Origin: Melioribacter roseus
GTDB lineage: Bacteria; Bacteroidota; Ignavibacteria; Ignavibacteriales; Melioribacteraceae
Direction: 5' to 3'
DNA length: 44,298 nt
Assembly (NCBI GenBank): GCA_020724265.1
Contig: DYHH01000032.1
Location: forward strand, 1 to 44,298
The notes beneath the pieces were generated by a model. The model made no database searches, was not told where the DNA came from, and saw only the letters and a list, made by a program, of their open reading frames with translations. The position numbers were made by a program, and so were the translations under genes. Below, piece by piece: positions 2,124 to 29,760 of the stretch (positions are counted from its first letter, which is position 1; every line of letters begins with the position of its first letter).

Positions 2124-4382
2124 ATGGATTCAAAAAAAATGATTACCTATCTTTTTACTCTAATATTGGTGGTCTCTTTTAGCATCAATGCACAAAGCAT
2201 TACAGAAACAAAAAAGATATATGAAAATGCCGGAATTACAGGTGAAAAGCTGACTAAAGTTGATTTCACCATTCAGTATTTAGTTTATAACTCGCTTTCA
2301 AGTAACCAATCACAAATAAAAGAATCAAAACCATTTTCTGGAAATTCTGTGATAACAAGTGTAAATGGAAAACTCTTTGTTTCTGTATTTATTAAATCGA
2401 GTTATCCTCAACAAACAAAAGCACTCATTCAATCGGTTGGAGGTAGTGTAAGCAATATTATTCAAAATATTTTAATTGCTGATATACCAGTTGATGAATT
2501 GACGAATGTTGTTTTTAATGAAAATATACTTGAAGTAGAAACAGCTCGTTATTCAGAATCTTTCCTCGATGAAAGTCTAAAATACATTAACGTTGATAAA
2601 ATACATAACGGAGAAAACTTACCAAGAGCTTATAAAGGAAAAGATGTAGTTGTCGGTGTATTAGATAGCGGAGTTGATTGGACGCATCCGTCATTTAGTA
2701 ATGCAAACGGTAATCGAATTTTATATCTATGGGATATGTCCGATGATACAAATCCACCCGCAGAATTTAACTATGGTACAGAATACACAAAAGCCGATTT
2801 AGATCAGCAGAATTCAAATCAAATTGATGATGATGGTCATGGTACTCATGTTGCAAGTACAGCAGCCGGTAATGCCGGAGGTAGTGAATATCCTTTAGAT
2901 GGAGTTGCTCCCGAAGCTGACATTGTTTTCGTTAAAGGTTATAGAAACGGACCTGGTTTTGCTGATACCGATATTGTAAATGGTTGTGATTATATTTTCA
3001 AAAGAGCTGAACAATTAGGGAAGCCTGCTGTAATTAACTTAAGTCTCGGTGGACTGATTGGTAATACCGGTACAACTTTATATGAACAAGCATTGACAAA
3101 TTTAGTTGGACCCGGAAAATTGATTGTCGCTGCTGCTGGAAATGAAGGAGATAATTTCTATCATTTACAATATGAAATGAGCGGTAGTTCAATCGAAGAA
3201 GCATCCGAAACTTATTGGGAAGTAGAAAAAATTGAAAATGAACAAACATTTTTAGTTGGGTACCCGCAAAGTGATAATTATACTTTCGGTATAAAAATTT
3301 ATTCTGCAGATTTATCAACAGTTCTTTACACTTCACCGGCTGTGAGTTTTAATCAGATACAAATGAACGTTGATGTGGTCGTAAATAGCAACAGCATAGG
3401 AACTTTAAATATGAGTGGTCACCCGAATTTTGTTGATCCGTCTTTATCAGGGGAACCGTATTTATTTGGAATGCAGTTCATCTATGAATCGGATGCCGAT
3501 TTTAGTAATTATGTTTTCTCATTATATACATATGGTTCATCAACGCTAAACGCTTGGATAGTAAACGGAGAATTTACTTCTGATTCTGACCCGGGTAATA
3601 AAATATTCCCCGGAGATAATTTTATGACTGTCGGGTCACCTTCAACCGCATATAATGTTTTTAGTATTGGAGCTTTTACAACTAAGCTATCTTGGACGGA
3701 TATCAATGGAGCTCCATTCCAGGTTGATGGAACTATTACAGATCGAGCATATTTCTCAAGTATTGGTCCTACCAGAGATGGAAGAATTAAACCGGACTTT
3801 TCAGCCCCGGGACATTGGATTGCAGCGGGGAATTCAAAAGATGCCAATTATGATAATGAATTATTATTGAATAATATAACTGTCCATTTACAAGGTACAA
3901 GTATGGCGTCACCGCATTTTACCGGTGTAGTTGCATTATTGTTGGAACAAAATCCAAATCTTACTTACGAAGAAGTATTTACAATTCTTCAAAATTCGGC
4001 GGTTGTAGATGGAATAACCGGAGCCGTACCTAACAATGAATTTGGTTACGGAAGGATTGATGCTTATGCGGCATTACAATCAATAATTACTTCCGTTGAT
4101 GATGATAATTCAGTTCCGTTTGAATTCAGCTTATTACAAAATTATCCAAACCCCTTTAATCCAAGTACGGTCATTGAATATAGTATACCGATAAATGAGT
4201 TGGTTCAAATAAAAATTTATGATATGCTTGGAAAAGAGATAACGACCTTAGTTAATGAGCTAAAATCTCCTGGGACTTATAGAGCGGAATTTGATAGTAA
4301 GAATTTATCATCGGGTGTGTATTTTTACCGTATTACTGCCGGAAGTTTTCAAGATGTTCGTAAAATGATACTCCTCCGCTAA
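2124..4382 (+). CDS. Secreted S8 (subtilisin-like) serine protease with T9SS sorting domain
   Basis: A 752-residue exoprotease. It has a signal peptide to about residue 24 (SINAQ), then a propeptide-like region to about 165, then the S8 catalytic domain with all key residues visible: Asp181 in VLDSGVDW, His239 in DGHGTHVAS, oxyanion Asn340 in AAAGNEG and Ser593 in GTSMASPH. About 250 residues separate Asn340 and Ser593, so the catalytic domain carries a large beta-rich insertion there. The last ~80 residues (LLQNYPNPFNPST onward, ending KMILLR) form a type A sorting domain, implying export through the type IX system and release or attachment at the cell surface. AGGAGA 8 nt upstream supports the ATG at 2124. 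Likely role: extracellular protein degradation. Confidence 0.93.
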   Translation: MDSKKMITYLFTLILVVSFSINAQSITETKKIYENAGITGEKLTKVDFTIQYLVYNSLSSNQSQIKESKPFSGNSVITSVNGKLFVSVFIKSSYPQQTKALIQSVGGSVSNIIQNILIADIPVDELTNVVFNENILEVETARYSESFLDESLKYINVDKIHNGENLPRAYKGKDVVVGVLDSGVDWTHPSFSNANGNRILYLWDMSDDTNPPAEFNYGTEYTKADLDQQNSNQIDDDGHGTHVASTAAGNAGGSEYPLDGVAPEADIVFVKGYRNGPGFADTDIVNGCDYIFKRAEQLGKPAVINLSLGGLIGNTGTTLYEQALTNLVGPGKLIVAAAGNEGDNFYHLQYEMSGSSIEEASETYWEVEKIENEQTFLVGYPQSDNYTFGIKIYSADLSTVLYTSPAVSFNQIQMNVDVVVNSNSIGTLNMSGHPNFVDPSLSGEPYLFGMQFIYESDADFSNYVFSLYTYGSSTLNAWIVNGEFTSDSDPGNKIFPGDNFMTVGSPSTAYNVFSIGAFTTKLSWTDINGAPFQVDGTITDRAYFSSIGPTRDGRIKPDFSAPGHWIAAGNSKDANYDNELLLNNITVHLQGTSMASPHFTGVVALLLEQNPNLTYEEVFTILQNSAVVDGITGAVPNNEFGYGRIDAYAALQSIITSVDDDNSVPFEFSLLQNYPNPFNPSTVIEYSIPINELVQIKIYDMLGKEITTLVNELKSPGTYRAEFDSKNLSSGVYFYRITAGSFQDVRKMILLR

Positions 4383-17963: not shown

Positions 17964-20807
17964 ATGAAAAGATTCCATTATCTATTCTTCGGATTGTTAT
18001 TTTTATTAACAACTGTTGCTCATGAAAATGAAACTATAAAAAAAATTGAAGAAGCATATCAATTAGGAAAAATAAATTATGAAGAAGCATTACTTCAAAA
18101 ATTTTATTCCGGTTTTGACAGGTCAAAACTAAATGATGAGTTTTCAGTTTACTCCCAATCAATACAAAAATGTGCAACACATTTAATTGCAGAGTTTAAA
18201 AATAATTCAGATAAACTTTCGGATGAAACAATAAGAATCATTGAAAAATTGATTGTACCGAAAGTAACCAAAACAAATAACTCGAATACAACTTCAACAT
18301 ACATTTCGCCTTATCAAAAGTTCGAGTTGACATATACAACATCGGGAACGCACCGTGTACCGTCACAAGATTTGGATAATAACGGTATTCCCGATTACGT
18401 TGAAAGAGTTGCAGAGTATTTTGATCACTCATGGCGAGTGTTAATTGATACACTTGGTTTTAAACCAATTCCACTTGGACCCGGAGAATATTATCAAATC
18501 GGTTTTGAGAATATGGGTTATTACGGATATACAATGCCAGATGGTTCTAATGCAATGTCTTATATTATGATGCACAATAATTATGAAGGTTTTCCAAATA
18601 ATAGTGATCCTGATGGTAATGTTTTAGGAGCTGCAAAAGCAACCGCAATACATGAATTTAAACATGCAATTCAAAGAATATATAACAGATGGAGAGAACC
18701 CGGATGGTTTATTGAAGCCGATGCTACCTGGTCTGAAGATATAGGATTCGATCTTACCAATGATTATTATAATTATCTTCGTGATTCACAAATACGCGAG
18801 CCCGGACGCGGACTTGCACAAGGAGATGGTTATGAAGATAATCTCTTCTTTCACTTCTTTACCGAGAAATACAGTATTCATACAAACCGGGAGATTTGGG
18901 AACGAAGAGAACAGTTTAATGAATCTGTTTTCAGCAGTGTAAATAATATGCTCGCTAATTACGGTGCATTTTTTGATCAAGCATTTGCAGAGTATTTTAC
19001 ATGGTTGTTTAATACCGGGAATAATTACAATCCTAACCTTCCCGGTTTTGGAGAAGCAACTTTTTATCCGACCTCCTTGCATTGTAACTTAATTACATCT
19101 TTGCCTGTTGAAAGTACAGGCTGTAGTAGAGATGCACTATCAGGGAACTTTCTGATTTTTGACAGCCAGAATCAAAATAAATATTTGCAGGTTTTATTGG
19201 ATACTCCGAACGGGAATAATTATGCGGGTGTTTTAACAATCTATACTGATGGAACAACTAATGTAGAATTTTTTGAGTTAAGTAATTCAACTGAATTGGA
19301 TTTATTTGTACAACCAAAGTTAACGGATATTGAAAGATTTGTTGTTATCCCGGTTGTTACATCTACAACAGGTTCCGGTTTTAGTTATGAATATAAATTT
19401 GATGCATTTCAAACCGCAGTTTTTACCCACACTCCATTTGCAGATACTGAATCAACAGGTGATTTGGAGTTTATAGTTACTGTTGAAACACCGCAGAATC
19501 TTGCATATTTAGATTCGCTCAGATTTTTTTATCAAATAAACCAAAGCGGATATCAAGAATTAGAATTAAACCCAACAGGAAATATTGATGAATATTCGGT
19601 AACTATTTCTGATCCCGGGGCAGAGATTCAGTTTGATTATTATTTCAAGATTGCCGACGAATTGGGTGAAAAAATATTTTATCCTCATTTAGGACCTGAC
19701 TCGACATTTAGCTTTTTTATCGGAATTGATTTGATAGCACCGGTAATCGTTCATAACTCTTTGATCGGAACTCCTAAATATAATTTCCCTTTATATGTTT
19801 ATTCGCGGGTTACGGATAATATTGGTCTCGATTCCGTTTATTTGGAATACCGTGTTAATGAAAATGAATGGATTAAAAAGGAAATGATATTTTTAGGAAA
19901 TGATATCTTTATTTCGACTATCAATCTATTACCTGAAGAATTAACAACAGGTGATTTAATTGATTATAAACTTACCGCCGTTGATATATCTTCAAACAGT
20001 AATGTTGCCACCAAACCAGAAAGCAATTTCTTTAGATTTGATGTTGCGGAAGGAACTTATTTTTATAGTGAACCGAATATTGCAATTCGTGAACATATTA
20101 TTGCTTCGACAAATGATACAATTAGTGTCACAGATGAAATTACTATTGAAGATATTAATATTTATTTTAAGTCCGATCATCCCAGGTTCAGCGATTTGCA
20201 TATTCGTCTTTATGATCCTTCAGGAAATCAATACGATTTAGTCAACCGCGATTGGTTCGAGACCGAAAATGAAAATGCCGGTTCACCTTCAATAATCTTT
20301 GATCAAGATGCGTACTTCACTTTTGATGAAGCAGTGTTGGTTGATGCAGATTCGGCAACTGGAACTTTTGCACCGGTTCATTCTGATTTGACTCAACTCA
20401 ACGGTACATCAGCATTGGGTGATTGGAGATTACGCGTATTCGATAAAGGTATTAATGACATTAAAGGTAATTGGCTTGAATGGGGATTAATAATAAAAGG
20501 TCATGGTACCACAAGTGTTGATGACAAAGATGATACGCTAGTTAACGAATATCAGCTATTCCAAAACTACCCAAACCCGTTTAACCCAACAACCAGAATC
20601 AAGTATCAAGTAGCAAGTATCGAGAAAGTAATTATAAAAGTTTACGATATTCTTGGTAGGGAAATAACAACACTTGTTAATGAAGTCAAATCACCGGGCA
20701 CTTATGAAGTTTATTTTAATGCTTCAAATTTAACGAGCGGTGTTTATTTCTATCAGTTAACTTCAAATGGTTTTTCGCAAACCAAGAAACTCTTGCTGCT
20801 CAAGTAA
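17964..20807 (+). CDS. Secreted HExxH metalloprotease with P-domain and T9SS sorting domain
   Basis: 947 residues. A signal peptide (to about residue 20) is followed by a propeptide-like region, then a zinc-protease domain with the HEFKH motif (His230-Glu231-His234) and a downstream Glu251 in IEADATWSED as candidate third ligand. This arrangement resembles the MXAN_6640-type putative metalloproteases. The middle is Ig-like beta-sandwich sequence. Residues ~700-845 form a proprotein-convertase P-domain (DINIYFKSDHPRFSDLHIRLYDP ... LGDWRLRVFDKG). The C-terminus is a T9SS type A sorting domain (FQNYPNPFNPTT ... KKLLLLK). It is first in a run of four exported proteins, and a terminator follows it. 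The substrate is unknown. Confidence 0.85.
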   Translation: MKRFHYLFFGLLFLLTTVAHENETIKKIEEAYQLGKINYEEALLQKFYSGFDRSKLNDEFSVYSQSIQKCATHLIAEFKNNSDKLSDETIRIIEKLIVPKVTKTNNSNTTSTYISPYQKFELTYTTSGTHRVPSQDLDNNGIPDYVERVAEYFDHSWRVLIDTLGFKPIPLGPGEYYQIGFENMGYYGYTMPDGSNAMSYIMMHNNYEGFPNNSDPDGNVLGAAKATAIHEFKHAIQRIYNRWREPGWFIEADATWSEDIGFDLTNDYYNYLRDSQIREPGRGLAQGDGYEDNLFFHFFTEKYSIHTNREIWERREQFNESVFSSVNNMLANYGAFFDQAFAEYFTWLFNTGNNYNPNLPGFGEATFYPTSLHCNLITSLPVESTGCSRDALSGNFLIFDSQNQNKYLQVLLDTPNGNNYAGVLTIYTDGTTNVEFFELSNSTELDLFVQPKLTDIERFVVIPVVTSTTGSGFSYEYKFDAFQTAVFTHTPFADTESTGDLEFIVTVETPQNLAYLDSLRFFYQINQSGYQELELNPTGNIDEYSVTISDPGAEIQFDYYFKIADELGEKIFYPHLGPDSTFSFFIGIDLIAPVIVHNSLIGTPKYNFPLYVYSRVTDNIGLDSVYLEYRVNENEWIKKEMIFLGNDIFISTINLLPEELTTGDLIDYKLTAVDISSNSNVATKPESNFFRFDVAEGTYFYSEPNIAIREHIIASTNDTISVTDEITIEDINIYFKSDHPRFSDLHIRLYDPSGNQYDLVNRDWFETENENAGSPSIIFDQDAYFTFDEAVLVDADSATGTFAPVHSDLTQLNGTSALGDWRLRVFDKGINDIKGNWLEWGLIIKGHGTTSVDDKDDTLVNEYQLFQNYPNPFNPTTRIKYQVASIEKVIIKVYDILGREITTLVNEVKSPGTYEVYFNASNLTSGVYFYQLTSNGFSQTKKLLLLK

Positions 20808-20829
20808 AATAATATTTGTATAGATTGAT

Positions 20830-20866
20830 AAATCCCCGAGGTAGTTTTTTTATGTCGGGGATTTTA
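20830..20866 (+). terminator. Rho-independent terminator
   Basis: AAATCCCCGA (20830-20839) pairs with TCGGGGATTT (20855-20864) and is followed by TATTTG. It ends transcription after the metalloprotease gene, so the tandem M28 genes likely have their own promoter in the ~90 bp that follow. Confidence 0.8.
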
Positions 20867-20958
20867 TTTGTTGATAACCGGATATACAAGTATTGATATA
20901 TTTCTTATTGCATGGTATATTCAAAAAAACAATTCTACCATTTATGGGGGGAAATACC

Positions 20959-23841
20959 GTGCAGAAGTTATTCATACTTATTACAGCTATTGTTGTATCT
21001 ATTAACATCTCGATTTTTGCTCAAACCAATGAAGTAAAACTTGTTTCAATTGATCTAACCAATCCGATAAAATTAGATCGCATTGAATTACTAAATTTTC
21101 CGGTTTTTAATATTACTTCAGATAAACTTTATAGTGCAGCGACAAAATCACAATTAGAAAATTTGAACAAATATAAAATAGAATATGAATTGTTCAGTGA
21201 TTATGTGAATTATGATAATCTCTACATTATTTCAGAAAAGAAAAATCGAAAAATTAATGAAGCGATTATAAAAACATTGGAGCAAGTAAAACTTGCTGAC
21301 GTTTCGTTAATAATTGCCGAAGATGCTTCAATTATTAATCATGACTTAAAAATCATTCCGGTAAAAAATATCACAAGAACTTTTAAAAATATTAAAACAA
21401 GATATAATTCAACTTATTCCAGTAGTAAATTGGATTCAATGATAATCCCCATAATAAATGATGTTAACGTAGAATCCGTAACAAGTTATATACAAGGTTT
21501 ACAGGACTTTGGAACACGATTTCTTCGTCATCCAAACAGAAAAGAAGTTGCGCTTTGGATTAAAGAAAAATTTGAGTTGATGGGTTATTCTGATGTAGTT
21601 CTGGATTCATTTGTTGTTTCTGGTTATATGCAATACAATGTTATTGCAACTTATCCGGCTGAAGTCCCAACCAGTAAAACTATTGTTGTAGGCGGGCATC
21701 ATGATTCTATCACACAACAGAGCTTGAGTAATACTTTTGCACCTGCACCCGGTGCAGATGACAATGCAAGCGGAACAACCGCAGTTCTTGAATCTGCCCG
21801 TGTATTAAAAGAAAATAATTTTCAATCCAAGGCAAATATAAAATTTGTAACCTTTGCCGCAGAAGAATTGGGACTATATGGCAGCCACTTTCATGCTCAG
21901 AAAGCACTTAATAGTGGTGAAGATATCAAACTAATGATTAACCATGATATGATTAGCAGTTCGAGAAGACCGCTAGCAGAAAGTGTTGTTGATATAAATT
22001 ATTATCGAGGCTCTGAAGTTTACCGGGATATTGCCGTTCAAACTGTAAATAAATACGCGAACACCAATGCTTTAATCGGTCAATTAAACAGCAGTGGGTC
22101 TGACAGCTATTCTTTTTGGTCAAGAGGATTTGATGCCGTATACTTTGAGGAATATGATTTTAGTAGTTACTATCATACTGATCAAGATCTAATTCAGAAC
22201 CATGATATGGAGTTTTGTACGGAGGTGATTAAAGGTTCATTAGCAACCTTGATTTCCGTATCACTTATTCCGGCGGTAGTTTCTAATTTTGAAATTTATG
22301 ATGCGGGCGATGGTGAAACTATAGTGTTAAATTGGGATCTCAGTAGTGAATCGAATCTTGACTATTACAAAGTTTATATAGGTACATCCGAAGGGAATTA
22401 CAGCAGTGTTTATGAAACGAATAATAATACTTACGAAATTACAAGTCTAACGGAAGGTGTTGTTTATTATTTAGGTGTTTCGGTGGTTGATACAGATGGT
22501 TATGAATCTTTGATAATAGAACGAACTAAGATTCCTTATTCAATTCCGTTGTCACCGGTACAATTTACAGTTGAACCTTCATGGCAATCAGTAGTTTTAA
22601 ATTGGAAAGCCAATGAAGAACTTGACCTTGCCGGATACAATATCTATCGCTCGGAAAAAGAAAGCGAAGAAATAACAAAATTAAATAACGAGCTTGTTAC
22701 CGAGAATACATTCACCGACAATACTGCCGAAAGCGGTATTTATTATTATTATTTTATTACTGCAGAGGATGCAGATCAAAACGAAAGTGATTATTCGGCT
22801 ATTATAGTTTCCCGTGCTGTAACTTTGGATCAAGGAATTCTGCTCGTTGATGAAACCGCGGATGGCGACGGTTCACTTTTTTCTCCAACCGATGAACAAG
22901 TGGATGATTTCTATAGAAATGCCATAAATGATTTTTATTATAGCACCTTCGACTTAAAATCAATAACAAAAATTAGTCTTTCAGATTTAGGAGCTCACTC
23001 AGCCGTGTTATGGTATGGTGATGATAAAACAGACCAAGATGCTATGCAATTTGTTGAGGACATAAAAAAGTATTTGGAATTCGGTGGTAAGTTCTTCTAT
23101 TCGGGTTATCGTCCGTCAAAAACATTTGCAGGTGTAACGGGTCTTACAAGTGAATTTAATTCAGGTGATTTTTTATATGATTACTTCAAAATCAATAGTG
23201 TGAATTATAGTTTGTTAGGTCGTTTTAACGGAGCTGAAAGCGAGTCACTTGGTTATCCGAGCATTTTCACCGATCAAAACAAAACCGAAGCAAGTAATAG
23301 TTACCATATAAATGGTATTGAAACTTTTGAACCTGTTGAAGGAGCGGTTGAAATTTACAAATACAATTCCAGTTATGATATCGGCACGCCGCAAGGCTCA
23401 CTAAGTGGTAATACTGTCGGAATAGAATATATCGGCGAAGATTTTTCAACTGTAATTTTAAGTTTCCCTTTGTATTATATGAATGAAAGCGAAGCTTATC
23501 AATTTATTAATTATGTATTCGCAGAAAAATTCGGATTACTAACCAGCGTTGATGCAGATGAAAAAGATAATATTTCTTTAACATTTAGTTTGCAGCAAAA
23601 TTATCCGAACCCGTTTAATCCAAGTACCAACATCGAATTTTCTTTACCGCAGAATCAAAAAGTTACGTTAAAGATTTATGATTTACTTGGTAGATTAGTT
23701 TCAACTTTAGTTGATAGTGAATTAAATGCAGGAAATCACAAAGTAACATTCAATGCGGGTGATTTATCCAGCGGTGTTTATTTCTATACTATTAATGCCG
23801 GTGAGTTCAACGCAACTAAAAAATTAATATTGCTTAGGTAG
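20959..23841 (+). CDS. Secreted M28 zinc aminopeptidase-like protein with FN3 and T9SS sorting domains (copy 1)
   Basis: About 960 residues from GTG at 20959. I chose this start because GGGGGGA lies about 7 nt upstream and the signal peptide (QKLFILITAIVV...IFAQ) begins right there; an in-frame TTG at 20893 would put 22 extra residues in front. The M28 domain has every metal ligand: His247 and Asp249 (GGHHDS), Asp268 (GADDNASG), catalytic Glu302 with Glu303, Asp330 (NHDMI) and His406 (YYHTDQD). Two fibronectin-III-like domains follow, then a ~200-residue domain beginning GILLVDETADGDG, then a sorting domain (QQNYPNPFNPST ... KKLILLR). An N-terminal ~150-residue prosegment is absent from its neighbour at 23850. 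Likely an exported peptidase. Confidence 0.9.
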   Translation: MQKLFILITAIVVSINISIFAQTNEVKLVSIDLTNPIKLDRIELLNFPVFNITSDKLYSAATKSQLENLNKYKIEYELFSDYVNYDNLYIISEKKNRKINEAIIKTLEQVKLADVSLIIAEDASIINHDLKIIPVKNITRTFKNIKTRYNSTYSSSKLDSMIIPIINDVNVESVTSYIQGLQDFGTRFLRHPNRKEVALWIKEKFELMGYSDVVLDSFVVSGYMQYNVIATYPAEVPTSKTIVVGGHHDSITQQSLSNTFAPAPGADDNASGTTAVLESARVLKENNFQSKANIKFVTFAAEELGLYGSHFHAQKALNSGEDIKLMINHDMISSSRRPLAESVVDINYYRGSEVYRDIAVQTVNKYANTNALIGQLNSSGSDSYSFWSRGFDAVYFEEYDFSSYYHTDQDLIQNHDMEFCTEVIKGSLATLISVSLIPAVVSNFEIYDAGDGETIVLNWDLSSESNLDYYKVYIGTSEGNYSSVYETNNNTYEITSLTEGVVYYLGVSVVDTDGYESLIIERTKIPYSIPLSPVQFTVEPSWQSVVLNWKANEELDLAGYNIYRSEKESEEITKLNNELVTENTFTDNTAESGIYYYYFITAEDADQNESDYSAIIVSRAVTLDQGILLVDETADGDGSLFSPTDEQVDDFYRNAINDFYYSTFDLKSITKISLSDLGAHSAVLWYGDDKTDQDAMQFVEDIKKYLEFGGKFFYSGYRPSKTFAGVTGLTSEFNSGDFLYDYFKINSVNYSLLGRFNGAESESLGYPSIFTDQNKTEASNSYHINGIETFEPVEGAVEIYKYNSSYDIGTPQGSLSGNTVGIEYIGEDFSTVILSFPLYYMNESEAYQFINYVFAEKFGLLTSVDADEKDNISLTFSLQQNYPNPFNPSTNIEFSLPQNQKVTLKIYDLLGRLVSTLVDSELNAGNHKVTFNAGDLSSGVYFYTINAGEFNATKKLILLR

Positions 23842-23849
23842 AGGATGTA

Positions 23850-26345
23850 ATGAAAAAATTTTTATTTGTATTTCTGTTAACAATCTTATTTATTGGTACA
23901 AATGCACAAACACTCAAACAAAAAATTGAATCTGTTCATAGTTATATGAGTGTTGATAGTGTTACTTATTATGTTCAATCTTTAGAAAACTTCGGAACAC
24001 GATTTCAATACCATGAGAATAGAAAAGAAATTGCAAATTGGTTGAAAGATCAGTTTGTTGGTATGGGATATGAACAAGTTGAGCTTGATTCATTTTATGT
24101 TGTAACAAGATTTAATAATAATGTTCCTGTTATGCAGTATAATGTAGTCGCAACTCTCACCGGATCAACAAGACCGGATGAAATTTTTATTATTGGCGGT
24201 CATTATGATTCGTTTAATCATACGGGTGATCTTGAAAATGCACCGGGTGCTGATGATAATGCAAGCGGGACGGCTTCCGCATTAGAAACTGCAAGAGCTA
24301 TTAAACTAGCAGGTTATCAACCTTCTGCAACAATTAAGTTTGTCTGCTTTGCAGCAGAAGAACTCATGCTATCCGGAAATTCCGGCTCGGAATATATGGC
24401 GGCTAAATATCGTGAACAAAACATCAACCTAAAATTGATGATAAATAATGATATGATTGCAAATAATCCGAGACCGTTGAATGAAAGCATGGTTAGCGTA
24501 AATTATTATACAGGTAATGAATATCTAAAAGATATAGCAAAACGACTTGTAGAAGAATATACAGTTGTAACTCCAATGGATGGGGGACGGGATACATGGA
24601 CAGACAGCCGATCTTTTCATGAAGAAGGATTTCCTGCAATCTATTACGATGAATATGATTTTAGTCCGTACTACCATACCTCAGATGATCTTGTAGTAAA
24701 CTGTGATATGGAGTATTGTACCGAGATCATTAAAGCCTCTTCTGCGATGTTAATTTACAGCATTGAAGCACCAGGTTTAGTAAATAATTTAGTCGCTTAT
24801 GATGTTGGTGATGGATCTTCAATAAAATTATCCTGGAGACAAAGTGAATCAGAATTTTTAGAAGGATATAATATTTATTTTGGTACAGATGAAGACAATT
24901 TATTTTTTCATTCTTCTGTTGATACTTCATTCCAAATAATCACAGGATTACAAGAAGGAAATCTATACTATTTTGGAGTTAGCAGTGTAGACAAAGAAGG
25001 AAATGAAAGTATCACAAGAAATATTTCTGCTGTTCCTCATTCAGTACCACGAACACCTGTTGATTTGGTAGCCGAACCTAAATTAAACGCGGTTGAGTTA
25101 AGTTGGGAAGCAAATACCGAAGTTGATTTACTTGGTTATAGAATTTATAAAGTACCGGTAACAACATTCGATAATTTTCCACCATTAACTTATTATGTAA
25201 CTGAAAATTCATTCATCGATGAAGATATTGTCAGCGGCATGTGGTATGAATATGTTCTCTACGCATTTGATACAGATTCTAATTTTAGCATTGAAGGTGC
25301 AATAGTATTTTCACGTGCTGTTACTTTGGATAAAGGAATTCTATTTGTTAATGAAACTACCGACGGAAACGGTAATATCGGTAATCCGTCATTTGAACAG
25401 GTAGTAGAATTTTACCTCACACTACCCGGAAGCAATTATGAAGTTGATGCAGTCAACATGACTGAAACAGATAGTTTTAATTTAGCGCATCTTGGTGCAC
25501 ATAATACAGTTGTTTGGCATGTTGATAAATCTGCCGATGTAAAAACATTTCAGTATATAAATATCATTAAAGAATATTTGGATTACGGAGGTAATTTTAT
25601 TTTCACCGGTTATAAACCTTCTAAAGCATTTGCTAACTCCTCAAGTATGTTTAATGAATATTCCGAGGGAAGTTTTATTTATGACTATATGAAAATTTCC
25701 AAATCGGAAAATTCGCTTCTTGGTTTATTTAAAAATGGTGATAGTGAATCTGCAGGTTATCCGAAATTAGAACTTGACCAGGAGAAAATTAACACAGCTG
25801 ATGGACATATTAAAACAATTGATGTTATTCATCCAACTGATGAAGCGGATATAATTTATTCTTATGCTACTGATTATCCGACGGGTGATATTAAAGGAGC
25901 ATTATCCGGTAAACCAATCGGAATTGAATATTTATCGGAAGATTATAATCTGATTGTACTTTCTCTGCCTCTTTATTATGTAAATAAAACTCAAGCTCAA
26001 GAATTTTTAAATTATGTTTTGACAAGCAAATTTAATACTCCGACAAGTATTGAGTTCGAAAATGGTAAAGAAGAGTTAGCAAACGAATTCTATTTAGCAC
26101 AAAACTACCCAAACCCGTTTAACCCAACTACCAGTATCAAGTATCAAGTAGCAAGTATCGAGAAAGTAAGTATAAAAGTTTACGATATTCTTGGTAGGGA
26201 AATAACAACACTTGTTAACGAAGTCAAATCGCCCGGCACATACGAAGTAAAATTTGATGGCTCGAATTTATCGAGCGGAGTTTATCTGTATAGATTTGAA
26301 GCCGGGAGTTTTTCTTCAGTTAAGAAACTAATATTACTTAAATAA
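23850..26345 (+). CDS. Secreted M28 zinc aminopeptidase-like protein with FN3 and T9SS sorting domains (copy 2)
   Basis: 831 residues and a clear paralog of the gene 8 nt upstream: same domain order (signal peptide, M28, FN3-like, the ILFVNETTDGNG domain, sorting domain) but without the long prosegment. Ligands are His118 and Asp120 (GGHYDS), Asp136 (GADDNASG), Glu170/Glu171, Asp201 (NNDMI) and His276 (YYHTSDD), all intact, so both copies should be active. AGAGGATG sits before the ATG. The two are a tandem duplication and surely cotranscribed. The sorting domain DNA differs from copy 1 but nearly matches the unrelated genes at 17964 and 26546, which points to local gene conversion. Confidence 0.9.
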   Translation: MKKFLFVFLLTILFIGTNAQTLKQKIESVHSYMSVDSVTYYVQSLENFGTRFQYHENRKEIANWLKDQFVGMGYEQVELDSFYVVTRFNNNVPVMQYNVVATLTGSTRPDEIFIIGGHYDSFNHTGDLENAPGADDNASGTASALETARAIKLAGYQPSATIKFVCFAAEELMLSGNSGSEYMAAKYREQNINLKLMINNDMIANNPRPLNESMVSVNYYTGNEYLKDIAKRLVEEYTVVTPMDGGRDTWTDSRSFHEEGFPAIYYDEYDFSPYYHTSDDLVVNCDMEYCTEIIKASSAMLIYSIEAPGLVNNLVAYDVGDGSSIKLSWRQSESEFLEGYNIYFGTDEDNLFFHSSVDTSFQIITGLQEGNLYYFGVSSVDKEGNESITRNISAVPHSVPRTPVDLVAEPKLNAVELSWEANTEVDLLGYRIYKVPVTTFDNFPPLTYYVTENSFIDEDIVSGMWYEYVLYAFDTDSNFSIEGAIVFSRAVTLDKGILFVNETTDGNGNIGNPSFEQVVEFYLTLPGSNYEVDAVNMTETDSFNLAHLGAHNTVVWHVDKSADVKTFQYINIIKEYLDYGGNFIFTGYKPSKAFANSSSMFNEYSEGSFIYDYMKISKSENSLLGLFKNGDSESAGYPKLELDQEKINTADGHIKTIDVIHPTDEADIIYSYATDYPTGDIKGALSGKPIGIEYLSEDYNLIVLSLPLYYVNKTQAQEFLNYVLTSKFNTPTSIEFENGKEELANEFYLAQNYPNPFNPTTSIKYQVASIEKVSIKVYDILGREITTLVNEVKSPGTYEVKFDGSNLSSGVYLYRFEAGSFSSVKKLILLK

Positions 26346-26356
26346 TTACTTGCAGA

Positions 26357-26375
26357 GAGCCGGTTTTACCGGCTC
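26357..26375 (+). terminator. Hairpin after M28 pair, possible terminator
   Basis: GAGCCGG (26357-26363) pairs with CCGGCTC (26369-26375) around TTTTA, 12 nt after the stop of the second M28 gene. It is followed by ACTTCTTGC, not a strong T run, so termination is probable but not certain. Confidence 0.55.
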
Positions 26376-26545
26376 ACTTCTTGCTTGCAGCTTAATTAGT
26401 ATTAGTATTGCTAATTATAATTTTCCTTCTTAAGTTAAAGTCAAGACTAACTAATAACAGTTTTTATACTTTTGTTTTTTACGAACAAAATTATCAATCA
26501 TAACTACATTCACATGTGATTGAAGAATTTGTTAGTGAGGTAAAA

Positions 26546-28267
26546 ATGAAAAGGTTAATTCTTCTTGTTTTACTTTTATCTTTCCAAATAATAATTACAG
26601 CACAGAGTAAAATTGATTTGGCAGAAAAAGCTAAAACAATTCCGGTAAACAAAAACAATTCATTTGTAATTCCTAAAGCGAATACTTCCTCAACAGAAGG
26701 GAATATAATTGGCTACACGGATTATGACTATGTAAGCAATAACGGTTTGCTAAATCAGTTGGATTTGTATGACATTGACTCTGACGGAAAATTAGATCCG
26801 GTTGGTACTTATATGAGAAGATTATCTACAGAAGCTAATGGTTTAAGACAACAAGTAATGTTTCTCGGTTTGGAAAATGAGTTTGTATCATTTCCTATAA
26901 CAGATGATAATTTACCTTCCGGATCCGGGGCAATTCAAGTATTAAGAGCAGGACCTTGGGCTGATCATGCTGCTATTATGTTTTCGCAAGGTAATAAAAT
27001 GAAGTTTACGGTTATTCGGTTAGCGGATTTCTATTTAATTGTTAATGCCGTTGAACTCGATTTCACAGTTTCATATCCAAACTTTTGCTATTTAGACGAT
27101 GGAAAAATATATGCGATTTCAAACGATGATAAGTTGAAGTTAATTTATGCAGATAATCCGCAAGTATCAAGCGTAACAGAGATAGAATTTTCAGCAGGTT
27201 CATCATTTCAGCCAATAAAAAGATCACCGAACGGTCAATACTTAGCTGTTGTAAATGCCAATACCGAAACTCAAGTTATCTTGCATTATTCCAGCGATTC
27301 AGGTGAAACATGGAGTGAAGAAATTATCGGTGAAAATTTGGTCAATGAAATTTCTAATAGACCTAACACTTTTCCGCTTTTTACCAATTTTGGACAAGCA
27401 TCATATGTATTAGATGATTCGGGCGGAGTTCATATCGGAATGAACGGATACGGTTTACATATTGATAATACCGATACAACATTTGCTTACCCGGCTTTAT
27501 ACTGGAATAATAGAAATAGAGAATGGATTGCAATCTCTCATCCGGACGAAGAGGGTGAAGAACTTTCTGGTTTGCATCCGGGAAATGGAATTGGTAATGC
27601 GTATCCGACTCCAATGGTAAGTAATGATGGGAAAGATGTAACAGTAATTTATCAAGCGCCAGAATATGAAAATGGGGTGCTTCAAATTTATAGTGGGGAT
27701 GGTTCCGATAATAATTATGCGTGTTATTATACGGATATTGTATTGAGTAGTCCAAATTATTCTGATTGGTTACCATTTGGAAAACCTCATCAGTCAGAAG
27801 TATTTCCTACTGCATTTGATTGGATTGAAAAACATCATGCGCAACCTCCTCAAATATGGACATCATGGTATTACCAATTTATGTACATGGTTGATGCAAT
27901 ACCTGGATGCTCTATATTTGATGAAAATAGTCCTGACGAAAATACATATTGGGTTCATGATAGTTTTTTTATTGCGACGACAGGTGTTGATGAACAGAAA
28001 GAGTTTAATTTTGCATTAGCACAAAACTACCCAAACCCGTTCAACCCAACTACCAGTATCGAGTATCAAGTAGCAAGTATCGAGAAAGTAAGTATCAAAG
28101 TTTACGACATTCTTGGTCGGGAAATAACAACACTTGTTAACGAAGTCAAATCACCAGGCACATACGAAGTAAAATTTGATGGCTCGAATTTATCGAGCGG
28201 AACATATTTTTATAGACTCTCTTCCGGAAATTTTACACAAATCAAAAAGATGCTGCTAGTCAAGTAA
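26546..28267 (+). CDS. Secreted protein of unknown function with T9SS sorting domain
   Basis: About 573 residues from the ATG at 26546, chosen because GTGAGG lies 7 nt upstream and the signal peptide (MKRLILLVLLLSF...ITAQ) begins there; an earlier in-frame ATG would be 26516. The body is beta-rich with BNR/sialidase-like propeller phrases (HYSSDSGETWSEEI, SPNGQYLAVVNA, DDSGGVHIGMNGYG, PMVSNDGKDVTVIYQ), but no catalytic motif can be pinned down. The last ~85 residues are a sorting domain (AQNYPNPFNPTT ... KKMLLVK), nearly identical at DNA level to that of the M28 copy 2 gene. A hairpin repeat follows. Probably an extracellular propeller protein. Confidence 0.75.
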   Translation: MKRLILLVLLLSFQIIITAQSKIDLAEKAKTIPVNKNNSFVIPKANTSSTEGNIIGYTDYDYVSNNGLLNQLDLYDIDSDGKLDPVGTYMRRLSTEANGLRQQVMFLGLENEFVSFPITDDNLPSGSGAIQVLRAGPWADHAAIMFSQGNKMKFTVIRLADFYLIVNAVELDFTVSYPNFCYLDDGKIYAISNDDKLKLIYADNPQVSSVTEIEFSAGSSFQPIKRSPNGQYLAVVNANTETQVILHYSSDSGETWSEEIIGENLVNEISNRPNTFPLFTNFGQASYVLDDSGGVHIGMNGYGLHIDNTDTTFAYPALYWNNRNREWIAISHPDEEGEELSGLHPGNGIGNAYPTPMVSNDGKDVTVIYQAPEYENGVLQIYSGDGSDNNYACYYTDIVLSSPNYSDWLPFGKPHQSEVFPTAFDWIEKHHAQPPQIWTSWYYQFMYMVDAIPGCSIFDENSPDENTYWVHDSFFIATTGVDEQKEFNFALAQNYPNPFNPTTSIEYQVASIEKVSIKVYDILGREITTLVNEVKSPGTYEVKFDGSNLSSGTYFYRLSSGNFTQIKKMLLVK

Positions 28268-28277
28268 GTTTGTCAAA

Positions 28278-28307
28278 TGTAGGGACAAGCCATGACTTGT
28301 CCCTACA
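28278..28307. repeat. Perfect 12-bp inverted repeat, REP-like
   Basis: TGTAGGGACAAG (28278-28289) pairs exactly with CTTGTCCCTACA (28296-28307) around CCATGA. No T run follows, so a simple terminator is less likely. Short palindromes of the form TGTAGGGRC...GYCCCTACA are scattered as repetitive extragenic elements in many bacterial genomes, from general knowledge; only one copy is in this window. Confidence 0.65.
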
Positions 28308-28389: not shown

Positions 28390-29760
28390 ATGAACAAATT
28401 TTCCATTCTTATTTTATTATTAATTGTTGTTACCGGCTTTTCACAAGATCATTCAAAATTTATACGAGGTCCATTCTCAACTCCGCAAGAAGTTACTAAT
28501 AGATGCCTTGAATGTCACGATGTAGCTGATGAAATAATGAATACAAGACATTGGTTATGGCTTGGCGATGTTATTAAATCCGGTAAATATGAAGGACAGC
28601 AGCTTGGTAAAAGAAATATTATAAATAATTTTTGTATAGCAGTTTCATCGAACGAACCGAGATGTACTAGTTGCCATATTGGTTATGGTTGGGAAGATGG
28701 TTCGTTTGATTTTACAAAAGCTGAAAATATTGATTGCCTCGTTTGTCATGAGCAAACCGGAAATTATAAAAAAGAACCGACAGCAGCCGGAATGCCCGCA
28801 AAAAATGTTGATTTATTGGCTTCGGCAAAAAGTGTAGGAAGACCATCGCGACAGAATTGCGGCAGTTGTCACTTTGACGGTGGGGGCGGTGCTGGCGTAA
28901 AACATGGTGATCTTGATGATAGTCTTTATGATCCTACTCCCGATGTTGATATTCATATGGGCGGATTAGGTTTTACTTGCGAAAATTGTCACAGCAAAGG
29001 TGATCATAATATATTAGGTGCATCTCACGCTTCAATGGCAGCAGGCGAAAATCATTTTTCTTGTGAAAGTTGTCATAAAGGTGAAGTTCATGAGAAAGAA
29101 ATTCTTAATAAACATCTTCAATCAATTGCTTGCGAAACTTGCCATATACCTCAAATTGCTAAAGTTGAACCCACAAAAACCTGGTGGGATTGGTCTGAAG
29201 CGGGTGAAGATAGAGAAAAATCTGTTGATGCTGACGGAAATGAAACTTATTCCAAAATGAAAGGCGAATTTGTTTGGGAAAAGAACCTAACCCCGGTTTA
29301 TGCATGGTACAACGGTACTACCGATCTTTATTTAATAGGGGATCAGGTTGAGGCGAAGGTTGTTAAATTGAATAAAACTAACGGTGATATTAAAGATACT
29401 AAAGCAAAAATTTATCCTTTCAAATTAATGAGAGGAAAGCAACCGTTTGATCCGGTAAATAAATATTTAATTGTTCCCCGTTTGTTTGGCGAGGGCGGAT
29501 ATTGGAAAACTTTTGATTGGATTAATGCTTCAAGAATTGGAATGGAAACAGTTGGTCTTGAATTTTCCGGTCAAGTTGATTTTATCGAAACAGAAATGTA
29601 CTGGCCTATTAACCATATGGTTGCTCCGGCAGATCAAGCGGTTAAATGTATCGAATGCCATGGTGTAAGAGAAGGTAAACGTGTTGACTTAAAAGCTCTA
29701 GGTTATTCCGAAGACCCGATGAAAACAGGCGGAAGATTCAAAAGCGGAATTATTAAGTAG
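28390..29760 (+). CDS. Octaheme c-type cytochrome, tetrathionate reductase family
   Basis: 456 residues with a signal peptide (to about residue 19, GFSQD) and exactly eight CxxCH heme sites, at Cys39, 92, 116, 157, 197, 225, 248 and 420. The long gap before the eighth heme matches the Shewanella-type octaheme tetrathionate reductase (OTR) family, periplasmic enzymes that can reduce tetrathionate, nitrite and hydroxylamine in vitro. The segment between hemes 7 and 8 is rich in Trp, Lys and Gly. GAGGT precedes the ATG. No quinol oxidase or partner cytochrome is adjacent, so its electron donor is not visible. It converges on the BtuB-like receptor gene and they share an inverted-repeat terminator region. 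The actual substrate here is inferred only by family. Confidence 0.88.
   Translation: MNKFSILILLLIVVTGFSQDHSKFIRGPFSTPQEVTNRCLECHDVADEIMNTRHWLWLGDVIKSGKYEGQQLGKRNIINNFCIAVSSNEPRCTSCHIGYGWEDGSFDFTKAENIDCLVCHEQTGNYKKEPTAAGMPAKNVDLLASAKSVGRPSRQNCGSCHFDGGGGAGVKHGDLDDSLYDPTPDVDIHMGGLGFTCENCHSKGDHNILGASHASMAAGENHFSCESCHKGEVHEKEILNKHLQSIACETCHIPQIAKVEPTKTWWDWSEAGEDREKSVDADGNETYSKMKGEFVWEKNLTPVYAWYNGTTDLYLIGDQVEAKVVKLNKTNGDIKDTKAKIYPFKLMRGKQPFDPVNKYLIVPRLFGEGGYWKTFDWINASRIGMETVGLEFSGQVDFIETEMYWPINHMVAPADQAVKCIECHGVREGKRVDLKALGYSEDPMKTGGRFKSGIIK

Follow-up and report, generated by a model that had tools for sequence, protein, structure and literature searches.

In ectopic gene conversion and in the concerted evolution of repeated genes, an internal tract is replaced, the flanks are kept and neighbouring copies are affected most. 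At the locus described here, by contrast, the repeat is not a gene family but a secretion signal of ~240 bp with which genes of no mutual relationship end on their 3' side. A likeness also exists to the T9SS cargo genes rgpA, kgp and hagA of Porphyromonas gingivalis, which carry identical repeats and whose modules are, according to passages of one study, reshuffled by recombination (PMC5266723). To account for the variation of surface proteins, these passages appeal to gene conversion. Their repeats are described there as adhesin modules of related proteins with exchange between strains (PMC5266723), whereas here, the tract is the sorting tag itself, shared between unrelated cargo genes of one genome. 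Among the best matches of a literature search that covered titles, abstract beginnings and some passages, no description of gene conversion of T9SS tags was found. Gene conversion as a general process is known; the T9SS tag as its substrate is new as far as this search goes.

The window, i.e. the whole stretch of 44,298 nt that was analysed, is contig C43 of a genome of 56 contigs and 3.77 Mb (G000). In a profile search for the T9SS type A sorting domain, this genome gave 121 matches, 120 of them above the cut-off. In addition, the genome encodes a translocon protein of the SprA family (TIGR04189, 1068 bits, G000:C10:235638-242084). All five tags of the window exceed the curated cut-off of Pfam and NCBIfam (TIGR04183 / PF18962) at the C-terminus of their proteins. 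Three of these proteins had been called unrelated in an earlier note, and their bodies indeed gave no mutual blastp matches at 1e-4. The designation of the first as P-domain protease is supported by matches to P_proprotein and an HExxH metalloprotease model. For the third, the label propeller-like had to be dropped, as Pfam and NCBIfam return the tag alone above curated cut-offs; ATG at 26547 is its likelier start and, judged by eye, opens a signal-peptide-like beginning. The body of M28 copy 2 is 43.5% identical (blastp) to that of M28 copy 1 located just upstream, and the tags of these two genes differ. The downstream end of the tag genes is adjoined by a gene for an octaheme tetrathionate reductase family cytochrome c (28390-29760; TIGR04315, 586 bits). 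Table 1 lists the features.

Table 1. Features of the sorting-tag block and its control in the window
Feature	Position	Strand	Basis or remark
Subtilisin gene's tag, control	4143..4382	+	Core and tail both pair with the G002 orthologue
P-domain / HExxH metalloprotease-like exoprotein gene, C-terminal T9SS tag	17964..20807	+	ORF; P_proprotein, NF045524, TIGR04183
Core read as converted, P-domain gene's tag	20568..20705	+	Switch points ~-9 to +15, and near +138; sliding identity, block edges
Tag end, P-domain gene	20706..20804	+	Nearer G002 orthologue except +162..+185
M28 peptidase copy 1	20893..23841	+	Tag 23602-23841; shared subtype absent here, present in G002 orthologue
M28 peptidase copy 2, T9SS tag	23850..26345	+	ORF; Pfam, NCBIfam
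Core read as converted, M28 copy 2 tag	26094..26267	+	7/186 differences; sliding identity
7-bp repeat AAGTATC AAGTAGC AAGTATC within core	26139..26159	+	Nearly invariant in DNA across 12 subtype tags
Tag end read as unconverted, M28 copy 2	26268..26342	+	Sliding identity; tail tree
Third exoprotein gene, T9SS tag	26516..28267	+	ORF; Pfam, NCBIfam
Core read as converted, third gene's tag	28016..28189	+	Codon/difference count; sliding identity
Tag end, third gene	28190..28264	+	Nearer orthologue to about +209, ambiguous beyond; sliding identity
Intergenic palindrome TGTAGGGACAAG..CTTGTCCCTACA	28278..28307	.	Family found in frame within G002 tags

The tags of the three unrelated genes are strikingly alike in their DNA. 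As claimed beforehand, the segments 26094-26279 and 28016-28201 differ at only 7 of 186 positions without any indel. The copy at 20562, said to be nearly as close, proved to be 91% identical over 20562-20740, so that the likeness runs slightly beyond the end originally given for it (20712); over 174 positions, it displays 17 and 21 differences to the other two. The tags of subtilisin (4143) and M28 copy 1 (23602) are diverged, as had been stated: their best core matches in the genome set reach only 0.62 and 0.60. A comparison of all 121 tags of the genome revealed unequal similarity, with a median DNA identity of 0.54 across the 7260 pairs, which speaks against a universal codon constraint. 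A subtype with the motif YQVASI comprises 12 tags: three in the window, three on C3, five on C7 and one on C33. These 12 tags are similar in the middle and divergent toward the end. The shared blocks break off sharply where conserved motifs lie; the upstream bodies and 3' flanks are unrelated, and the likeness of the tag ends does not exceed the ordinary (0.58-0.61). Among the loci searched, repeats resembling AAGTATC/AAGTAGC occur outside the 12 subtype tags at two places (L017 and L020). Elsewhere in the genome, three tag pairs with a spacing of a few kb show complete DNA identity along their entire length (C56:173433/177727, C47:24961/29219 and C50:72114/73793); they are either recent duplicates or products of whole-tag conversion.

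As orthologue reference, the closed genome of a member of the same genus (G002, 132 sorting-domain matches in the profile search) was used. It keeps the four genes in the same order, with an additional tag gene separating the P-domain gene from M28 copy 1; the cores of the three genes' orthologues are of another type. In the window, the central part of the sorting domain, about 120-175 bp long, sides with the neighbouring unrelated genes, and the tag end and about 50-70 bp of 3' flank side, like the protein body, with the G002 orthologue. Positions were counted from the YPNPF codons and identity was determined in steps of 24 columns. The P-domain gene matches its orthologue at 0.67-0.87 from -90 to -10. 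Between +15 and +137, identity to the orthologue is 0.17-0.79 versus 0.83-1.00 to the sister genes, and from +138 to +248, it is again 0.75-1.00 to the orthologue, except for +162..+185 (0.83 to M28 copy 2 versus 0.75 to the orthologue). The likeness to the orthologue persists ~70 bp past the stop codon, interrupted by a single low value of 0.36 at +249..+262. In M28 copy 2, the stretch between +15 and +161 resembles the other genes more closely; from +162 up to about +305, the orthologue is the closer match. A return to the orthologue near +162 is also seen in the third gene, albeit less clearly. Close to the tag, its body is just 0.40-0.50 identical to the orthologue, some steps do not exceed the likeness to M28 copy 2, and the final 16 bases before the flank favour neither side. 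Due to this low body identity and the ambiguous last coding step, the third gene is the weakest of the three cases. Since tag end and 3' flank stay with the gene, it is an internal tract that has been replaced between flanks of the gene's own ancestry, clearly so in the P-domain gene and M28 copy 2 and less so in the third gene. This means that the earlier suggestion of a conversion of the sorting tag holds with one correction: by sliding identity to orthologue and sisters, the exchanged unit is the middle of the tag and not the whole tag. Furthermore, M28 copy 1 carries a YQVASI core in G002 and not in the genome of the window; therefore, the subtype has been mobile inside the block.

Trees were calculated from 144 columns of the core and 72 columns of the tail. 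In AU tests on groups seen beforehand, the core tree rejects the three orthologue pairs between the window's genome and G002 (p-AU 6.8e-6, 0.0055 and 3.7e-4) and the tail tree rejects the grouping of the three genes (p-AU 1.8e-6). The subtilisin control pairs with its orthologue in both trees, i.e. without conflict. The core tree has many open forks and the three cores form no resolved clade; in the tail tree, the orthologue pair of the third gene is not resolved. A column-shuffle test of the Sawyer type on 12 members (66 pairs) yielded P = 0.0005, 0.0005 and 0.0035 for the window pairs and was set aside, because these values are inflated by a core that is more conserved than the tail.

Type A sorting domains form a seven-stranded beta-sandwich. 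An AlphaFold2 model of the tag at 26 kb, built from only five sequences (mean pLDDT 76.9), contains seven strands (14-18, 27-34, 38-45, 51-60, 63-70, 77-85, 88-96). Foldseek with this model lists the T9SS cargo domains 8glk_D, 8gl8_D and 8gl6_D, none of which reaches E 0.001. By sequence, a profile match to the sorting domain 8glj_D was obtained (E 1e-4). Mapped onto the model, the exchanged core would extend from the linker before beta2 into beta5 in the P-domain gene or to a point just past beta5 in the other two genes, and beta6-beta7 would stay with the gene. In P. gingivalis, the C-terminal end and the beta3-beta4 loop matter for export, and mirolase has a much longer beta2-beta3 loop, according to passages of one paper (PMC11285876). 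By our own placement, the beta3-beta4 loop would fall into the exchanged core and the C-terminal motif would be kept by the tail.

How often such replacements occur was assessed with a motif-based set of 117 of the 121 tags, to which 79 of the 132 G002 matches and 14 of the 58 matches of the draft genome G001 were compared. The orthology filter reduced the reciprocal best pairs from 33 to 27 (G002) and from 13 to 8 (G001). A strict rule demanded a core at least 0.10 nearer to a gene with an unrelated body and a tail nearer to the orthologue. It identified 3 of the 27 pairs with G002, all three inside the window, so that conversion is shown for the window block and only suggested genome-wide. 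A looser measure, a different type of beta2-beta3 loop, applies to 7 of these 27 pairs. With G001, both measures detect one of eight pairs, the P-domain gene, whose tag end is altered in G001, too. Core identities above 0.75 between tags of unrelated bodies were found in 7/47 pairs within 6 kb and in 5/69 pairs 6-20 kb apart, compared to 4/211 pairs farther apart on the same contig and 13/6836 pairs on different contigs. For those within 6 kb, the mean core identity is 0.558; permuting the labels 5000 times gives 0.476 (P = 2e-4). Old duplicates beneath the blastp limit may be among the near pairs, e.g. C21_47075/C21_47969, which are similar in core and tail alike.

The best explanation, which can be advanced with considerable confidence, is ectopic gene conversion between T9SS sorting-domain repeats that favours genes a few kb apart. 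The about 120 copies of tag DNA in the genome would provide the substrate repeats. Stretches conserved in nearly all tags (the codons for QNYPNPFNP, DILGRE and SSGVYFYR) could serve as places where homologous recombination starts and stops. The middle of one tag, flanked by these anchors, would be copied over that of another, more often among genes a few kb apart. In this way, three unrelated exoprotein genes next to each other would have had their cores homogenised after this genome had separated from its relatives of the same genus. The donor was presumably a copy in the same genome, although any choice of one particular copy would be conditional, and RecA-type recombination probably drives the exchange. 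The converted tags presumably still function in export.

Allelic import, by which a core from another strain or species would have replaced the resident core in each gene after DNA uptake, is improbable. The subtype is present in G001 and G002, so donors exist in the genus, and the data carry no readable direction of transfer. However, the best matches among 58 genomes are the three own copies (100, 96 and 91%), followed by 81% in G001. Moreover, the similarity tracks the distance along the chromosome, and one allele would have to be imported several times separately into neighbours. An assembly artefact with collapsed or chimeric repeats is very unlikely, even though tags are repetitive DNA and a contig end immediately follows a tag gene in nine cases. 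Collapse is at odds with copies that differ at 7-21 sites, share one contig and keep orthologous sequence on either side of the core, and a chimera presupposes two misjoins that coincide in each gene. The idea that a tagged gene was duplicated and its bodies were replaced later finds some backing in the tandem relationship between M28 copies 1 and 2. It is hardly credible for the three genes, as their bodies have syntenic orthologues in G002 and their tag ends and flanks side with them; therefore, the genes are older than the shared core. Among codons with the same residue, 55/61 are identical in the 26-kb/28-kb pair, compared to 26.0 (sd 3.6, maximum 41 in 20,000 draws) expected from the tags' codon usage. 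Over 58 codons, the pairs with the 20-kb copy share 43/52 (22.5 expected) and 39/51 (21.9 expected). That constraint on the protein and codon bias keep the tags alike can thus practically be dismissed despite a conserved family with YPNPFNP-like motifs in nearly all copies, because identical synonymous codons are far above chance, the all-pairs median is low and the cores are closer to each other than to their own orthologues.

If gene conversion between tags takes place, the same pairing could also be resolved as a crossover and would then delete the gene between two tags. Two relatives with draft genomes, G001 and G003, are of interest in this respect. In tag coordinates, the P-domain genes of G003 and G002 are identical between -120 and about +82. 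Beyond ~+82, the G003 gene matches, with a few differences, the gene that comes next in G002, tag and flank alike, and the 2293 bp that are missing are exactly as long as the interval from one of these G002 tags to the other. At the G003 junction, ~90 bp are identical between the two G002 tags; as the junction of this draft genome lies within this stretch, a misjoin is possible. In G001, tag end and flank of the P-domain gene are those of M28 copy 1, and behind them M28 copy 2 begins (38 codons to the contig end). Since the P-domain tag end of G002 matches that of the window's genome, the gene order of G002 is probably older. The arrangements in both drafts suggest the loss of a whole gene by tag-by-tag recombination.

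Tags also harbour palindromes. About 297 kb of the window's genome and ~197 kb of G002 were scanned for perfect arms of at least 11, loops of at most 10 and a G+C content of at least 35%. All 13 palindromes inside open frames of at least 120 codons (4 in G000, 9 in G002) are located in tags at the beta2-beta3 loop, in a sample that is biased because the scanned DNA was chosen for tag genes. Palindrome-bearing loops comprise L112, L118, L103 and L109 in G000 as well as L305, L313, L317, L326 and L333 in G002. They contain palindromes of the GTAG type and others, among them GTAGGGACAAGTCGCGACTTGTCCCTAC, which is also intergenic at L229:3064. At L109 from 1596 (contig C39), the tag loop PPRPSPYQGEGEREG is a G+C-rich hairpin repeat translated in frame. 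The pattern GTAGGGACA(8-12)TGTCCCTAC was searched genome-wide. In closed G002, 11 copies were found, 6 of them in frame in the beta2-beta3 loop of a tag. Among four copies in G000, none is in a tag, and the one at L379 lies within an open frame of 135 codons. G005 has no copy. G013 has 22, and at six loci inspected there, one copy (L374) is in frame within a protein region other than a tag, and four are in open frames without a nearby tag. Like GTAG-tagged REP palindromes, these palindromes start with GTAG and have intergenic copies. The known elements, including the Rickettsia RPEs, are short, begin with GTAG and are mostly intergenic with some within ORFs, as passages of PMC3733652 state, whereas here, in the G000 and G002 DNA around tag genes, all those in long ORFs sit in the sorting tag. 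The phyla named for GTAG repeats in these passages do not include Ignavibacteriota (PMC3733652).

A second repeat begins at the stop codons of tags. AAATAGTATCAAATGACC or AAATAGTGCCAAATGACC is present within 55 bp of the contig end at 10 of the 112 contig ends of G000 (C6, C8, C16, C21, C26, C28, C30, C34 and both ends of C36). At 9 of these 10 ends, AAATAG comprises the final sense codon of a tag gene plus its stop, and two further internal copies are at tag genes, too. Ten of 58 genomes, among them G000, contain a 15-bp pattern of the repeat, which this search did not find in G001-G003; 24 of the 28 loci printed for the pattern read by eye as a tag end. Similarly, repeated words after the stops of 117 G000 and 79 G002 tags did not reveal the repeat in G002. 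In G005, it is located at ends of C2, C9, C12, C15, C17, C21 and C37, and all five of these seven that were read (C12, C15, C17, C21 and C37) are at a tag stop. Two versions in this genome, ~69% alike, reach 118-124 bp and open a small ORF (MEQRRRV.. / MRKSRRI..). Only the first 50-124 bp of the repeat are visible at contig ends, and its body was not found in G005 or G000. Scanning genome contigs with the repeat pattern yielded eight stretches, seven in Ignavibacteriae bacterium IGN16 and one in a short record labelled archaeon, and a plasmid protein search gave no match. The repeat is either a mobile element preferring the 3' end of tags or a shared 3' repeat, and it breaks the assembly at tag genes.

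Taken further, tag DNA might constitute a genome-wide recombination platform, on which ~120 repeats swap cores, delete exoprotein genes by crossover and dock palindromes (beta2-beta3) and the stop-codon repeat. This wider picture is tentative and rather doubtful. If true, the secretion signal would drive the turnover of the secretome. T9SS bacteria may carry more than 100 genes with one and the same signal domain at their end, as do both genomes compared here. If the tag is a recombination substrate, tag phylogeny would tell little about the cargo, cargo genes between tags could be lost cleanly and draft assemblies may misjoin at tags. Recombination between tags would then be a simple, testable source of secretome turnover.
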